Positions 335 through 16,744 of a DNA stretch of 21,564 nucleotides are shown here, piece by piece. Every line of letters begins with the position of its first letter. Position 1 is the first letter of the stretch. The stretch is from positions 1-21,564 of the IMG/VR virus record IMGVR_UViG_3300044641_000709; one strand, given 5' to 3'. The notes below the pieces were generated by a model. That model did not search any database. It had not been told where the DNA came from and saw only the letters and a program-made list of their open reading frames with translations. Made by a program: the position numbers and the translations under genes. This DNA is from a virus.

Positions 335-483
335 CAGTTGAAGAACAAATGAATCGAATGCACAAGCTCAAGGTTTGTGATGTGTGCAGTCGTGAGGCTG
401 ATCCGCTTGGCGGTGTCACGGTGCGTGCCAAGTGGCATTGTGCTCGGTGCTGGGTGAAGCTGATGCAAAGGGGTCTGAAATGA
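331..483 (+). CDS. Small four-cysteine zinc-ribbon-like protein (50 aa)
   Basis: The ATG lies in an ATGA overlap with the helicase stop and is preceded by AAAAGGAG. The 50-residue product has C16-x2-C19 and C37-x2-C40, separated by 17 residues: a classic pair of knuckles for one structural zinc. The motif reads CDVCSRE, then WHCARCW. There is no membrane segment and the tail is basic. The gene ends in another ATGA overlap with the next gene, so it sits inside a translationally coupled operon between a helicase and a nuclease. It may be a small nucleic-acid-binding or adaptor protein, but function is not known. Coding status rests on the overlap geometry, the RBS and the regular Cys spacing. 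Confidence 0.72.
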   Translation: MTVEEQMNRMHKLKVCDVCSREADPLGGVTVRAKWHCARCWVKLMQRGLK

Positions 484-674
484 GCCGACCACCAGAGCCA
501 CAATTTTTGGTTGACTACCGCGAGTGGATCAAGGCCGGTCCACCGAAGTGCTGCCACACCTGCGAGATGTACGGCACAGATGGCCTGTGCACCGAGTTCT
601 TCATGACACCGCCAGCTGCGTTTGCTGCCGAGGTGGATGCCTGCCCTAAGTGGGAGCCAGAATGCCCATTTTGA
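480..674 (+). CDS. Small Cys-rich protein, putative zinc-binding (64 aa)
   Basis: The chosen ATG at 480 overlaps the preceding stop (ATGA). The frame extends upstream to 432, but that would bury the previous gene's end. The protein has C24, C25, C28, C37, C55 and C62, with the pattern C-x2-C-E-M-Y, then G-L-C-T-E-F, then C-P-K-W. The same ordered pattern occurs in the 133-aa virion-block protein at 13831-14232, suggesting a shared metal-binding fold. No catalytic motif is visible. The gene overlaps the start of the VRR-NUC gene by 13 nt, supporting co-translation with it. Function is unknown; structural zinc binding is inferred from the cysteines. Confidence 0.72.
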   Translation: MSRPPEPQFLVDYREWIKAGPPKCCHTCEMYGTDGLCTEFFMTPPAAFAAEVDACPKWEPECPF

Positions 675-1027
675 CCGACCGCATACCAACCGAGCATGAG
701 GAGCAGCGCGAGCTGGTGCGCTGGTTTCGCCAGACTTGGCCAGGCGTGCGCATCTTTGCCATTCCCAATGGTGGCGCTCGCAGTCTGGCCACCGCTGGCC
801 GTCTCAAGGCCGAGGGTGTGTCCTCTGGCGTGCCTGATCTGTTCATCCCTGCTTGGGGACTTTGGGTGGAGATGAAACGCACTAAGGGTGGCAGCCTGAG
901 TGCCGAGCAGAAAGACTGGATTGCCTATCTTGAAAGTGTGAGATTCTGTTGTATAGTGGGAAAAGGTGCTGATGATGCCAAGGGCAAACTTCAGGCCTTT
1001 TTTAATGAACAGAAGGACAAACTATGA
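662..1027 (+). CDS. VRR-NUC domain nuclease (121 aa)
   Basis: This is a single-domain VRR-NUC protein of the PD-(D/E)xK nuclease superfamily. Visible motifs are an N-terminal helix with EHEEQRELVRWF (E11/E14), the AIPNGGAR loop (residues 33-40), GVPDLF with D59, WVEMKR with E70 and K72, and a trailing Q83 in LSAEQKDW. D59, E70 and K72 form the expected metal-binding and catalytic set, and about 120 aa is the usual size for stand-alone phage members. These enzymes act on branched or flapped DNA (Holliday-junction resolvase-like in the family). The preferred start is the ATG at 662; an in-frame GTG at 650 lies deeper in the preceding gene. The gene ends in an ATGA overlap with the RHH gene. The nuclease likely works with the adjacent helicase in recombination or replication-fork processing. 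Confidence 0.9.
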   Translation: MPILTDRIPTEHEEQRELVRWFRQTWPGVRIFAIPNGGARSLATAGRLKAEGVSSGVPDLFIPAWGLWVEMKRTKGGSLSAEQKDWIAYLESVRFCCIVGKGADDAKGKLQAFFNEQKDKL

Positions 1028-12395: not shown

Positions 12396-13310
12396 TCAGA
12401 CCTTGCTGTAGTTGACCATCAAATAGCCACCAGATTCAGACACAGCGTCTGGATACACGCCTTGCACTTCTTGTGCCATGAGGCCGACTTGACGACCACC
12501 ACCCCAGATGTAATCAAACTCGTAGACGTTCAATCCATCAGGTCGTGTGCTGATTTTCTTGATGTTCTTTTTGAGACGAATATCACTGAATAAGTTGCCA
12601 AAACCTCCAGCTTTTCCTCCACCCATTTGCATACCGAGGAACTGAGCTGGCAGATTAAACAGTTGGCCATAAGCCTTGGCTTCACCAAGTTCACCACCGG
12701 CCAAAGCTGCACCTTGTTGTCCCAAGAGATTTGCAATATTTGTACCAGTTTGCAATCCTGCTGAACCTGTGCCAGCTGCTGATGACTGACCGATCTGGGC
12801 TAAGTTTTGCTGTGTGACACGACCAATATCGGCCATTCCACCCAATCGACCATATTGCCTTTCAATTTCTTGTTGAAGCATTTGTGGTCTAAATTGAGCC
12901 AGTGCGCCTTGGATGTTTCCACCACGCAAGCCACCAGTGGCAGATGCACGCTGAAGCAGTGCTTCTTCACCAGCTTGAACTTGTGCTTGGTAGCCAGCAC
13001 CACCTTCAATGCCTGCAATGGCTGCACGTTGAGCCTCTGGTCCACGCAGTCCAAGCAATGCCTGCTGTTGCTCAAGTGCTGGTGCTCCTACTTGCGCATA
13101 GGGTTGCAATCCTGCAAGGGCAGGAACTCCTGCCTCTGTGTAAGGTTTGAGCAATTCACGCATGGCTTCAAATTGCCTGCGTTGTTCTGCAATGCCTTGT
13201 TCAGCCGCAGCGCCTTGAATACCTGCGGCTTCGCCAGCAGCGCTGGCCTGCATTGAACTTCCGACAAGTTGGGTTCCACCAACGACTAGGGCGGTTATTG
13301 GATCAGGCAT
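12396..13310 (-). CDS. Ejection protein with C-terminal S74 chaperone-like domain (304 aa)
   Basis: Residues 1-240 are a Gly/Ala/Gln-rich helical protein of the gp7-like ejection type: MPDPITALVVGGTQLVGSS, then GIAEQRRQFEAMRELLKPY and repeated G-x-P-A-L. The last ~62 residues (SDIRLKKNI, YEFDYIW, GLMAQEVQGVYPDAV, GYLMVNYSKV) match the intramolecular chaperone/peptidase S74 domain. S242 and K247 keep the Ser-x5-Lys spacing of the self-cleaving dyad. The domain stops right after VNY, before the usual helical tail, so it may be shortened. In spikes S74 helps trimer folding and is then cut off; here it may help assembly of an internal protein. The start overlaps the previous gene by 8 nt. Confidence 0.83.
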   Translation of the reverse strand: MPDPITALVVGGTQLVGSSMQASAAGEAAGIQGAAAEQGIAEQRRQFEAMRELLKPYTEAGVPALAGLQPYAQVGAPALEQQQALLGLRGPEAQRAAIAGIEGGAGYQAQVQAGEEALLQRASATGGLRGGNIQGALAQFRPQMLQQEIERQYGRLGGMADIGRVTQQNLAQIGQSSAAGTGSAGLQTGTNIANLLGQQGAALAGGELGEAKAYGQLFNLPAQFLGMQMGGGKAGGFGNLFSDIRLKKNIKKISTRPDGLNVYEFDYIWGGGRQVGLMAQEVQGVYPDAVSESGGYLMVNYSKV

Positions 13311-13830: not shown

Positions 13831-14232
13831 TCAATCTTCCATTTCAAATTCACGTTCTTCCCATGCCTGGCAAACGCGCAGATCGTGGCAGATGAACTCG
13901 AATTTGGTGCAATAACCACGGAAACCAGCATCGGTGTCCCAGTCATTTCGGGGGATTCGCTCCATCTTGGCCTGCGTCATGGTGCTGTTGTCGTAATACT
14001 CGCAGTTCGAGCAGCGACGACGACGAGCTTCTTTTTCATCCACTTGCATGGCCTTGCCAACAGCGATCCAGTATGTTTTATTGGCCGTTGGCTCGTTGCT
14101 TGGATTCTCAGGGCCAAGCATCCAGTCATCAATGACGATCTGGGTGTTCTTCTTGTTCTCGGCTGTGGTAATGAATTCTTCTTCGACCGGCAAGCCAATA
14201 AAGCCCTTGGGCATCATCATGAATTTGTCCAT
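13831..14232 (-). CDS. Five-cysteine putative zinc protein in the virion block (133 aa)
   Basis: AAAGGAG precedes the ATG. The first ~70 residues are mixed alpha/beta (MDKFMMMPKGFIGLPVEEE, TYWIAVGKAMQVDEKEA). The C-terminal half has C74-x2-C77-E-Y-Y, GYCTKF with C108, then C115 and C121 followed by QAWEE. The order CxxCExY, GxCT[KE]F, CxxW is shared with the 64-aa protein at 480-674. Metal binding or, less likely, a redox site is inferred. Placement between the 111-aa beta proteins and the ejection genes suggests a virion or assembly role. Function is not known. Confidence 0.74.
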   Translation of the reverse strand: MDKFMMMPKGFIGLPVEEEFITTAENKKNTQIVIDDWMLGPENPSNEPTANKTYWIAVGKAMQVDEKEARRRRCSNCEYYDNSTMTQAKMERIPRNDWDTDAGFRGYCTKFEFICHDLRVCQAWEEREFEMED

Positions 14233-14243
14233 GCTGTTCTCCT

Positions 14244-14579
14244 TTAAGTAATTTCGCGGCCAGATGCGCGGATGGTCAGTGATGTGGCTGCGCTGGCAAT
14301 GGTTGAGATGAAACTACCAGACTCAAGCGCTTGGCCAACCAATTCGGGGAATGTGTATGTCTCATCGGGTGCAATGCTGCGTGTGTCCACGATCAAGTTG
14401 GCTGTGCCAGCACTGCCGCCACTAGTCACCAGATTGACGCTGATCGTCACATTGCTTGACGTTGTATTGGTGGCTGTGAATTTGTCGATCAGAGCCTTGC
14501 AGTTCACAGCTGTGTACTGCGTAGTCTGGGCATTTTCTGCCTGCTTTGGTGGAATCAGAACCTTGATTGATACGGTCAT
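14244..14579 (-). CDS. Beta-rich virion protein, paralogue B (111 aa)
   Basis: The ATG at 14579 follows AAGGAGAATGAA; the nine-codon upstream extension lies in the intergenic RBS area and is not needed. The product is a small, almost Cys-free beta protein: MTVSIKVLIPP, then FTATNTTSSNVTISVNLV, GGSAGTANLIVD, and it ends LTIRASGREIT. It aligns residue for residue with the neighbouring 111-aa protein (14590-14925), including N-T-T, V-x-[VL]-x-x-x-x-G-x-A-G-T and L-T-I-x-A-S-G-x-E. It is a tandem duplicate, probably a structural or decoration subunit. Confidence 0.78.
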   Translation of the reverse strand: MTVSIKVLIPPKQAENAQTTQYTAVNCKALIDKFTATNTTSSNVTISVNLVTSGGSAGTANLIVDTRSIAPDETYTFPELVGQALESGSFISTIASAATSLTIRASGREIT

Positions 14580-14589
14580 TTCATTCTCC

Positions 14590-14925
14590 TTATGTGGCTT
14601 CGCCACCGCTGGCGATGATTGTGAGGCCAGCCGATGCTGCCTGAATTTGAATTGTGTCGCCTGCGTTTAGCACCTCGATGCCGTTGTATTGCAGTGCATT
14701 ATTGGCTGGGACTGACACATCGTACAAGAATGCATTGCCAGTGCCTGCCGAACCTGCGGATGGCACCAAGAACACGCGCACATTGATGGCCGCTGCCGTA
14801 GTATTGGCAATGCTGAACTCTTTGAGCAGTGTGCGTGTGCTGGCTGGTACGGTGTACAGCGTTGTCACGCCTGTGGTGATGGCCGCTTGGCCAAGTTTTG
14901 CTGGTGTGATTACATCGAAAGCCAT
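14590..14925 (-). CDS. Beta-rich virion protein, paralogue A (111 aa)
   Basis: It starts MAFDVITPAKLGQAAITTGV, a typical phage structural start, followed by TTLYTVPASTRTLLKEFSIA, NTTAAAINVRVFLVP, GSAGTGNAFLYD and the ending LTIIASGGEAT. It is the same length as its downstream neighbour and clearly homologous to it. Both look like a jelly-roll or Ig-like beta sandwich by strand pattern. The start lies inside the end of the coiled-coil gene (16-nt overlap), showing tight coupling. A decoration or tail accessory role is inferred from its position between the gp10-like hub and the ejection genes. Confidence 0.78.
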   Translation of the reverse strand: MAFDVITPAKLGQAAITTGVTTLYTVPASTRTLLKEFSIANTTAAAINVRVFLVPSAGSAGTGNAFLYDVSVPANNALQYNGIEVLNAGDTIQIQAASAGLTIIASGGEAT

Positions 14926-15332
14926 GTGAGCACCTGATTAGATCGCACTGAGGCGGGTAAGTTTGCGTAAGGCAAGATGCCATTCACATCGTGTGCCAGT
15001 TCGATATTGTTGCGCACAGGTGCCAATGCAAGCAAGTCAAGTGCTTGGTCCAAGCGTGGTATGGCATCCAAGGCCTGTTGCACTTTGGCACTCAAGACAG
15101 CATCATCGACTGCGGTGTCTTGCGCCAGCGCACTGATCTGTGCCAGAGCATTGTTAGCATTGGCCGCTGCCGTGTCTGCTTGGTACTCAAAGTCAGTGCC
15201 TGTGATGACCTGAATTTGATCGACTGTAGAAAACAGCAATTCAAACTGCCTGATCTGTTGCTGGTCAGTCAGAAAGGTTGCGAGTTGATCTCGCGTCAGA
15301 TTAAGTCTGCGTGATTGTGGTGCGGTTGCCAT
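14910..15332 (-). CDS. Coiled-coil virion protein, tail-associated (140 aa)
   Basis: The gene starts in a one-base overlap with the gp10-like stop. The N-terminus SRRLNLTRDQLATFLTDQQ and IRQFELLFSTVDQI resembles attachment regions on podovirus tail-associated proteins. A central Ala/Asn/Asp-rich helix (ADTAAANANNALAQISALAQ) looks like a trimeric coiled coil, and the C-terminus has HDVNGILPYANLPASVRSN. In P22 the gene after gp10 is the tail needle gp26, also a trimeric coiled coil. Here the analogy is positional only, and the protein is shorter than the 233-aa needle. Cys is absent. Confidence 0.72.
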   Translation of the reverse strand: MATAPQSRRLNLTRDQLATFLTDQQQIRQFELLFSTVDQIQVITGTDFEYQADTAAANANNALAQISALAQDTAVDDAVLSAKVQQALDAIPRLDQALDLLALAPVRNNIELAHDVNGILPYANLPASVRSNQVLTWLSM

Positions 15333-16744
15333 CAGAATGCCAATGCCTCAATCTGGGCTTCAAGACGAATGAATGACACATGCGCATCGCTGTCGCCACG
15401 GAATCTCTGAATACGCCAATTTCGCATGTGGCCTTGCTGAAACCATGCCAGACGTTTGACGGTGTTTCCAGTGGTGCCAACAGTGATGTAGCGGTCTTGG
15501 CTCCATGATTTTCCATCCACGCTGTAGCTGGTGCTGATTTGTGGATTTGTTCCTAGTGCCACGCTTCCGGTCAAACTGACCAGTTCAAGCTCGTTGAAGA
15601 TCGCACCATTGCTTTCGTTGTAAACGATCAGCGTGCCAAATTCCCAGCGCACCTGTTGTCCCCAATGCTCACCAGTGCTTTGCACAAAGTAACCGATGGA
15701 GCTGGACTGTGGATCACCCACCAGCCACTTGTCGTAAATCCAGACCATGTTGCGTGCGCGATACTGTGCAAATCCAACTATTGTGCTTACCAGTGTAAAC
15801 CAGACAGGCTCACCTAATGCCTCTGATGCTGATGCGTCATAGACGATAGTTCGGTCTGGCAAATGCACATAAAGGTGAAGATGGTTTTTGTCGTTGCGTG
15901 CTTCTAGTTGCACGCGCACCAGCTGTGCTTCTGTATATTGCAGAAGCAGGTTGTCAATTTCTTGAGTGCTTAGTTTTTGAGTAGTGGCTGCTGCGCCAAT
16001 GTAAATGGATGGCGCTTCATTTCGACCACCACCCAAAAAGGCAATGCGATCAAGAAAAATGCAGCATGCATGCGTTCCAAGTACGCCTTTTTGAACTTGT
16101 GCGCCATCAATGCGTGCGAATGGAAACAAGTCACCACCCACGTTGTCGAACACCTCAATGGTGTTGCTGTTGAGCGCATAGACCTCGTTGCGCAACTTGA
16201 TGAGTGCCACCACAGGGTCTGGATCAACTTCTGAACTTCCATATTTCAATGGATTGACAGACAATGGATTAGACAATTCAGTGACGACCAAATTGGCACC
16301 ATCAGTCGTCATGAAGTAGCCATCGACCCAGCAGAAGTCGAGCACTACACCAAGGTCTGGATCGGTGTTCTGTGTGAGTGTGGATGCCACTGGGTCCCAG
16401 AAGTACAGTCGACCACCAGATGCAATGCCTAGTAAGTCAAAACTGTAATCAAGCGTCACCAAATCAGTGACTGGCCCACCAACATCGCCCAAAGTGGTCA
16501 CAGTTCCATCTCTGGCCACAGAAACCAACTTGGTGCCCATGACTCGGTAGCAAACACCATTCCAGTTGATTCCTCCACGATCAGTTCCTGGTCCTGTGCC
16601 GTTGGCCACAATACCATCGCCTGGACGCAGGAATCCATTGCTGATGCCTGAATTTTTTGGCACTGGCATCATATTGACCGGATAGCTGGTGCGCAACTCT
16701 GGCGTGTTGTCAGCGTAGATGCCGTTTAGGATTGGAATTTGCAT
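15332..16744 (-). CDS. P22 gp10-like tail hub / packaged-DNA stabilisation protein (470 aa)
   Basis: The start MQIPILNGIYADNTPELRTS, then YPVNMMPVPKNSG and GFLRPGDGIVANG, is the pattern of P22 gp10 (L-P-V-N-M-x-x-x-P-K followed by G-[YF]-L-R-x-x-x-G-I). The rest is a long beta-propeller-like protein, with NGVCYRVMGTKLVSVARDG matching the gp10-type repeated 'YRV-G-KL' strand. Length is close to the 472 aa of P22 gp10. It forms the hub that plugs the portal after packaging and carries the spikes. Its neighbours (gp4-like upstream, coiled-coil protein downstream) agree with this. It follows the 94-aa gene with only 3 nt between them, so translation is probably coupled. Confidence 0.9.
   Translation of the reverse strand: MQIPILNGIYADNTPELRTSYPVNMMPVPKNSGISNGFLRPGDGIVANGTGPGTDRGGINWNGVCYRVMGTKLVSVARDGTVTTLGDVGGPVTDLVTLDYSFDLLGIASGGRLYFWDPVASTLTQNTDPDLGVVLDFCWVDGYFMTTDGANLVVTELSNPLSVNPLKYGSSEVDPDPVVALIKLRNEVYALNSNTIEVFDNVGGDLFPFARIDGAQVQKGVLGTHACCIFLDRIAFLGGGRNEAPSIYIGAAATTQKLSTQEIDNLLLQYTEAQLVRVQLEARNDKNHLHLYVHLPDRTIVYDASASEALGEPVWFTLVSTIVGFAQYRARNMVWIYDKWLVGDPQSSSIGYFVQSTGEHWGQQVRWEFGTLIVYNESNGAIFNELELVSLTGSVALGTNPQISTSYSVDGKSWSQDRYITVGTTGNTVKRLAWFQQGHMRNWRIQRFRGDSDAHVSFIRLEAQIEALAF

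Follow-up and report, generated by a model that had tools for sequence, protein, structure and literature searches.

High potential iron-sulfur proteins (HiPIPs; PDB 1hip, Pfam PF01355) are periplasmic electron carriers that are exported by a Tat leader. Glycyl radical enzymes have HiPIP-like accessory subunits, which are cytoplasmic. These other users of the HiPIP fold in the literature include BSS beta and gamma, MASS beta and gamma, and HPAD gamma, i.e., small [4Fe-4S] proteins described as working by binding a large partner (PMC12590467, PMC12358834), and the ligands given for MASS-beta, Cys32, 35, 51 and 86, have a spacing unlike that of HiPIP (PMC12358834). Another iron-sulfur cluster, held by four cysteines of a structural protein, is described from the siphophage tail tip (lambda gpL, roseophage R4C hub), and the roseophage paper cites this tail-tip domain as essential for tail assembly (PMC10721106, PMC10276861). 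The ligands named for lambda gpL (Cys173, 182, 205, 212) are unlike the CxxC-C-CxxW arrangement considered here, and it is by cysteine arrangement that we set the tail tip apart. A further described system is the tip of bacterial SSB: the E. coli protein ends in MDFDDDIPF, and its Pro-Phe occupies a pocket of RecO (PMC7913777).

The window, i.e., the whole stretch of DNA that was analysed (21,564 nucleotides), corresponds to a 21.6-kb virus record that may be a fragment. Its late block, with genes for the major head protein, head-tail adaptor, head closure and DNA ejection, is encoded on the minus strand, and its DNA-metabolism end on the plus strand. The first-pass annotation had noticed an ordered cysteine pattern shared by a 64-aa and a 133-aa protein (P0001 and P0002; Table 1), and had suggested a metal-binding fold used twice by one phage, perhaps after duplication or domain recruitment. 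Both ORFs are present with the residues as written: C25-H-T-C28-E29-M30-Y31, G35-L36-C37-T38-E39-F40 and C55-P-K-W58 in P0001, and C74-S-N-C77-E78-Y79-Y80, G106-Y107-C108-T109-K110-F111 and C121-Q-A-W124 in P0002. The order C-x2-C, C, C-x2-aromatic is the same in HiPIP and in both proteins. The two settings are also as described, P0001 lying in the DNA-metabolism block beside a nuclease gene and P0002 between the head-closure and ejection genes, separated by three ORFs from one of these and by a single ORF from the other. We propose that both proteins carry HiPIP-type modules, that P0002 has an assembly role, and that P0001 is the partner of a nuclease; taken as a whole, we give this reading about an even chance.

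Table 1. Features of the window discussed in the text.
Feature	Position	Strand	Evidence or remark
50-aa CxxC...CxxC protein directly upstream of P0001	331..483	+	49 related ORFs in fetched loci
64-aa Cys4 protein P0001, family 1	480..674	+	ATG overlaps stop of preceding 50-aa ORF; 61-row alignment
HiPIP-like cysteine stretch of P0001, C25-x2-C28-x8-C37-x17-C55-x2-W58	552..653	+	HiPIP profile comparison aligns four Cys and aromatic
VRR-NUC nuclease, 125 aa from GTG at 650 (ATG at 662)	650..1027	+	Overlaps P0001 end; Pfam PF08774
C-terminal tail E-P-E-C-P-F of P0001, SSB-tip-like	654..671	+	Pro-Phe end in 145/145 relatives with a visible stop
DNA-ejection protein, downstream in late block	12396..13310	-	PHROG 598, E 1.8e-29
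133-aa P0002, family 2, predicted HiPIP-like fold	13831..14232	-	AlphaFold2; PDB comparisons; phage annotations
Cysteine domain of P0002, C74-x-N-C77-x30-C108-x6-C115-x5-C121-x2-W124	13861..14013	-	Five Cys invariant, 57 rows
Head-closure protein, upstream in late block	15332..16744	-	PHROG 578 head closure Hc3, E 4.3e-94

As a background for the signature, we used distinct stop-to-stop ORFs of at least 60 aa from the fetched loci, with the relatives of P0001 (family 1) and of P0002 (family 2) excluded. None of 12,155 such ORFs carried the exact signature, and for neither protein did any of 100,000 shuffles; a looser form was present in 14 of the ORFs. This confirms that the signature common to P0001 and P0002 is real. 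The bare cysteine spacing alone is less remarkable than the exact signature, being found in 229 of the 12,155 ORFs and, for the Cys-rich 64-aa protein, in 2,086 of its 100,000 shuffles. Within the families, the bare pattern C-x2-C, C, C-x2-[WYF] fits 145 of the 146 family 1 ORFs (113 distinct sequences) and 165 of the 168 family 2 ORFs (the window is counted twice among the 168 loci). The exceptions are truncated ORFs (L141 in family 1, L171 in family 2), and two further family 2 members, L150 with its longer spacing and L063, which is outside the 57-row alignment and has Q in place of W124.

The cysteine positions are kept in homologues of both proteins. Residues C24, C25, C28, Y31, C37, P45, C55, W58, P63 and F64 are among those invariant in the 61 aligned family 1 sequences, whereas T38 is variable in this family (V, R, K, I and F are also found). 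Seven distant relatives from Alteromonas and Salicola phages keep C25, C28, C37, C55 and the final P-F, with W or Y at position 58. In the 57 aligned sequences of family 2, the invariant residues are C74, N76, C77, G106, C108, K110, F113, C115, C121 and W124; C115 is a fifth invariant cysteine, absent from the pattern of the first-pass annotation. Family 2 is very common: among the matches listed, at least 596 of 599 matched stretches encode a relative.

For P0001, evidence of a HiPIP-type module comes from the comparison of profiles. Against a HiPIP profile of 30 sequences (1hip and 29 from cellular genomes), the family 1 profile scored 23.6 (E 3.1e-4), with the four cysteines and the aromatic residue aligned; the rubredoxin, DksA and FmdB decoys scored 10.9, 9.6 and 15.4, respectively, with a range of 7.2-15.4 over both directions. 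None of 150 column shuffles of the Cys-region profile, with the Cys columns fixed, reached the HiPIP score. The family 1 HMM reached HiPIPs at E 5.4 or worse, amid noise. In the search with the HiPIP HMM, members of family 1 and family 2 were the top non-HiPIP ORFs, yet at E 0.16 to 0.32, with P0002 at E 9.6 and P0001 itself absent from the matches listed. The hhalign probabilities were at most 39%, and 10% for family 1 in the reverse direction. The structure model of P0001 was of low confidence (pLDDT 61); Foldseek with this model matched no PDB chain, and its BFVD matches were discounted because of the low-confidence model behind them. Sequence searches of the PDB with P0001, P0002 or either profile gave chance matches or none, and PF01355 was not among the families matched by the 61 family 1 members.

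The alternative that survives best holds that P0001 is an ordinary small zinc protein with a HiPIP-like spacing by chance, and that only P0002 is HiPIP-like; the zinc would be structural, and the role as a nuclease partner would be unchanged. We consider this explanation tenable, if somewhat improbable. The failed model and the HMM comparisons that leave the family within noise are in line with it, as are the weak direct match to family 2 and the gap between the third and fourth cysteines, which is 17 residues in P0001 versus 12-13 in most fetched HiPIPs. However, this gap is not fixed in HiPIP-like folds, because MASS-beta uses Cys51 and 86 as its last two ligands (PMC12358834), and the similarity of the family 1 and HiPIP profiles exceeds that to the three zinc/iron decoys. 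Convergence, in which CxxC-C-CxxW is easily reached by small disulfide or metal proteins that have no common fold, seems doubtful to us: the counts of the bare pattern in background ORFs and in shuffles of P0001 speak for it, whereas the non-Cys columns add to the HiPIP match, since no Cys-fixed shuffle out of 150 reached the HiPIP score in either family.

Scans of P0001 and P0002 against Pfam, PHROG and NCBIfam gave nothing useful beyond PHROG 31018 for P0001 (E 0.004). PHROG 31018 and PHROG 23504, both of unknown function, have the same C-terminal Cys4 domain as P0001, and PHROG 31018 differs from it by an extra N-terminal part of ~80 residues. Matches to PHROG 31018 were found in 5 of 369 genomes from the class of one family 1 MAG; in the MAG itself, the match covers the C-terminal half with the Cys part, and the others cover mostly the N-terminal part. 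One of the five genome-contig loci collected for family 1 (L318) was rejected as a 12-residue chance match.

The HiPIP-type reading of P0002 starts from its predicted structure. The AlphaFold2 model has a pLDDT of 88.6; over residues 21 to 130, the block means lie between 90 and 98. The Foldseek comparison with the PDB gave 24 matches, of which the top nine are HiPIPs, led by 1hip at E 0.031, and the other 15 have probabilities of at most 0.04; matches in other libraries, which were not counted, reach 0.09 at most. The VIA-align comparison gave 17 rows, of which the first 14 are HiPIPs with Z of 5.3 to 4.2, values to be read with the program's own warning that Z under 8 may mean merely a common arrangement. 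Glycyl radical enzyme subunits surfaced in rows 15-17, i.e., two B chains of benzylsuccinate synthase followed by one from a further glycyl radical enzyme (Z 3.0 to 2.3), and the last row we take to be HPAD. Of the window proteins that were scanned, none was recognised as a glycyl radical enzyme. Together, the Foldseek E of 0.031 and the Z of 5.3 amount to middling evidence that P0002, as modelled, has a HiPIP-like fold.

Sequence comparisons add to this picture. The family 2 profile scored 26.4 against the HiPIP profile, and none of 150 shuffles of its Cys-region profile, with the Cys columns fixed, reached the HiPIP score. It should be noted that this match spans only 14 columns round the first two cysteines, so that the HiPIP case for P0002 rests on the fold; the family 2 profile also scored 19.0 over 10 columns against DksA. 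Like most fetched HiPIPs, family 2 has Asn between the first two cysteines and Gly two residues before the third, and P0002 resembles them in its predicted fold. Unlike HiPIPs, family 2 has the fifth invariant cysteine and, in some members, a protease fusion; the gap between the second and third cysteines is 30 residues in P0002 versus 16 in 1hip; PF01355 had 0 matches in the window and none among the 57 family 2 members; and no twin-arginine or other evident export leader was seen when the P0002 sequence was read by eye. DUF7140 matched 21 of the 57 members (best E 0.0019), with P0002 itself at 14 bits versus a cut-off of 27. In a tblastn search with P0002, nine phage records were hit and seven were labelled 'high potential iron-sulfur protein'; two of these seven agree in length and identity and may be one genome. 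GenBank thus already has the larger protein under a HiPIP label. The suggestion of one metal-binding fold used twice therefore stands in part: the Cys pattern and, with it, a putative type of metal site extend to both proteins, and the predicted HiPIP-like fold to the 133-aa protein only. One metal-site type used twice, apparently HiPIP-like, is what the pattern and the larger predicted fold point to.

The position of the P0002 gene among late genes recurs in some relatives. For example, MW202867, a near relative of the window, has both genes in similar settings; in Actinomycetia phage DSL-LC01, the family 2 gene immediately precedes two genes annotated as capsid maturation protease, the first of which has no Pfam match; and in Roseobacter phage CRP-13, it is ~2.5 kb from the small terminase. 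In MW202462, MW202710 and MW202879, the gene is found among other or unnamed genes, so its position is not uniform. We scanned 113 neighbouring ORFs of family 2 (114 from 36 loci, with one longer than 700 aa dropped), and the most frequent named PHROGs were head closure and terminase (five each), endolysin, endonucleases and DNA pilot. The 'Ferredoxin' PHROG 5115 was matched by 4 of the 113; an electron-transfer pair is not claimed for family 2, as the Cys-rich neighbours look by eye like HNH endonucleases.

In 4 of the 168 family 2 loci, Peptidase_S78 is in one frame with the family 2 domain (Pfam E 4.5e-40 to 1.4e-4), and the HiPIP part follows the peptidase in L208 and L219 but precedes it in L221 and L224. 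The fusion in L224 was found by Pfam alone, just above the cut-off, and a local profile recovered three of the four fusions and no others. In two of these ORFs, an N-terminal stretch matches the Pfam family BRX (L219, residues 147-185, E 1.6e-5, at the cut-off; L224, residues 53-86, E 0.0022, below it); the name is that of a plant family, which one would not expect in a phage. The BFVD comparison with the P0002 model gave eight matches with E <=0.001, with names including prohead protease, portal and XkdF. Because of the late-block position, the protease fusions and these BFVD names, we place P0002, in a probable role, in particle assembly. Two minus-strand neighbours (14590-14925 and 14244-14585) appear, by eye, to be a single beta-rich fold in two tandem copies. 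In its C-terminal third, the ejection protein matches the C-termini of tail fibres from many families, which would be expected of a self-cleaving chaperone domain, presumably S74.

These observations bear on another explanation, in which P0002 is an auxiliary metabolic gene product, a true HiPIP electron carrier that aids host photosynthesis or respiration during infection. The HiPIP-like predicted fold and the GenBank labels favour an electron carrier, whereas the lack of an evident export leader in P0002, the gene position between head closure and ejection, the prohead protease fusions and the fifth invariant cysteine all argue against it, and we judge it improbable.

The two families were also compared to each other. 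Direct BLASTP of P0001 against P0002 gave E 0.19. The family 1 and family 2 profiles scored 18.7 against each other (17.1 in reverse), compared to 23.6 and 26.4, respectively, for the two families against cellular HiPIPs (19.3 and 24.8 in reverse). The score between the families was reached by 2 of 150 shuffles with the cysteines fixed and by 1 of 150 with all columns shuffled. Thirteen of the 20 records chosen for the small gene also have the large gene, and seven show none. Among the 19 records chosen for the large gene, two have the small gene and 17 show none; the count of two is skewed low, because five large contigs carrying both genes were left out. Some of the records are fragments. 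Family 2 was not found in the four MAG genomes with family 1, which shows little. A 60.7-kb contig, IMGVR_UViG_3300036985_000346 (L004, L026, L090, L109), has both genes twice, and this record may therefore hold two related phage genomes. Derivation of one gene from the other by duplication inside this phage lineage, which the first-pass annotation had raised, is highly improbable, since each profile is closer to cellular HiPIPs than to the other family and each gene occurs alone in other phages, even though both genes are present in 13 of the 20 small-gene records and share E after the second cysteine and F after the third; a recent duplication is unsupported on the same grounds. In one lineage the two genes co-occur, and elsewhere they are found separately, a distribution in keeping with two independent recruitments of one kind of module.

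The gene adjacent to P0001 encodes a VRR-NUC nuclease, which in the window scored 25.5 bits against PF08774 (cut-off 23.8) and also matches PHROG 824 and PHROG 5702, Holliday junction resolvase. Among the 145 family 1 loci, a set that contains the window and counts some contigs twice, VRR-NUC follows downstream on the same strand within 2.5 kb in 139, and the remaining six end within 700 bases. The distance from the ORF end to VRR-NUC is <100 bases in 114 loci, 100 to 599 in 24 and more in 1. The adjacency holds in 25 of 26 representatives, in three of four MAG loci (the fourth ends at the match), and in two Alteromonas phages of low identity, and is thus conserved across divergent phages. The Alteromonas PB15 member of the PHROG 31018 and 23504 group has its gene between a helicase and VRR-NUC, and its protein ends in Pro-Phe, like P0001. 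The MAGs with the 64-aa gene and VRR-NUC are labelled Methylomonas or Methylococcaceae (L314, L315, L316), a hint at the host group of related phages. The 50-aa protein upstream of P0001 is a third small Cys protein in this window, within the P0001 gene cluster.

Every family 1 member with a visible stop, that of the window included, has Pro-Phe as its last two residues (145 of 145; 38 of 38 distinct tails); none of the search patterns for the family spanned the last six residues, and one stopped at W58, while the tail is covered by the profile from which the member list was drawn. Position -4 is Glu in 33 and Glu or Asp in 34 of the 38 distinct tails, and position -3 is V, I, C or L in 36. 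Among 13,855 other ORFs, most of which are not genes, Pro-Phe is the C-terminus of 13, and acidic-x-Pro-Phe of none; among those other ORFs of at least 120 aa, Pro-Phe ends 3 of 2,425 distinct tails. The family 1 tail and the bacterial SSB tip are alike in the mostly acidic residue at -4, followed by one residue and Pro-Phe at the exact, free C-terminus. The family 1 tail is less acidic than that of E. coli SSB, and P0001 has Cys, not Ile, before Pro-Phe; P0001 also differs from SSB in having only ~9 residues after the last cysteine and no recognised OB fold. SSB itself (PF00436) was found in 0 of the 20 chosen records, some of which may be fragments. Judged by its residues, the P0001 tail resembles an SSB docking tail.

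Calculation gave the conserved cysteine pattern, the fold predicted for P0002, the protease fusions, the adjacency to VRR-NUC and the tail. From these, we infer that a metal is bound and of which type, that the proteins are cytoplasmic, how P0001 folds, what the two proteins bind and each functional step, as follows. A HiPIP-type cysteine module would be present in both proteins, with a [4Fe-4S] cluster as the most likely cofactor, and each module would serve as a cytoplasmic accessory part of another protein, rather than as a periplasmic electron carrier; no twin-arginine leader was seen in P0001 when its sequence was read by eye. P0002, a late-block protein with a predicted HiPIP fold, would probably help particle assembly by binding a structural protein, and in some relatives the putative module is covalently part of the prohead protease. 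For P0001, the probable role is that of a small subunit that assists the VRR-NUC nuclease of the adjacent gene. With its Pro-Phe end, P0001 may dock in those pockets of host repair proteins that hold SSB, and the docked P0001 would bring the nuclease to recombination or replication intermediates.

Apart from the existing HiPIP label, the new parts of this account are the protease fusions, the fifth cysteine, and a nuclease-coupled small relative with an SSB-like tail. Titles and abstract beginnings from the literature, with few subscription papers among them, contained no HiPIP-like phage protein, no account of a protease fusion and no SSB-like tail on a phage Cys protein, which is weak evidence of absence. 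If family 2 does have a HiPIP-like fold, this large phage family, in part fused to the prohead protease, would be a second kind of iron-sulfur module in virus assembly. For P0001, the analysis offers a testable guess at the role of a phage protein of unknown function, i.e., a nuclease partner with an SSB-like docking tail. The widest statement, which we put forward as speculative and unlikely to hold in full, is that tailed phages use HiPIP-type modules in two unrelated jobs, one as an integral part of assembly or capsid maturation, either as a separate protein or joined to the prohead protease at one end or the other, and the other as a nuclease subunit that mimics the SSB tail and steers a VRR-NUC resolvase to SSB-coated DNA. 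If this were true, for either job, phage assembly or recombination would be sensitive to iron supply or oxidative state.
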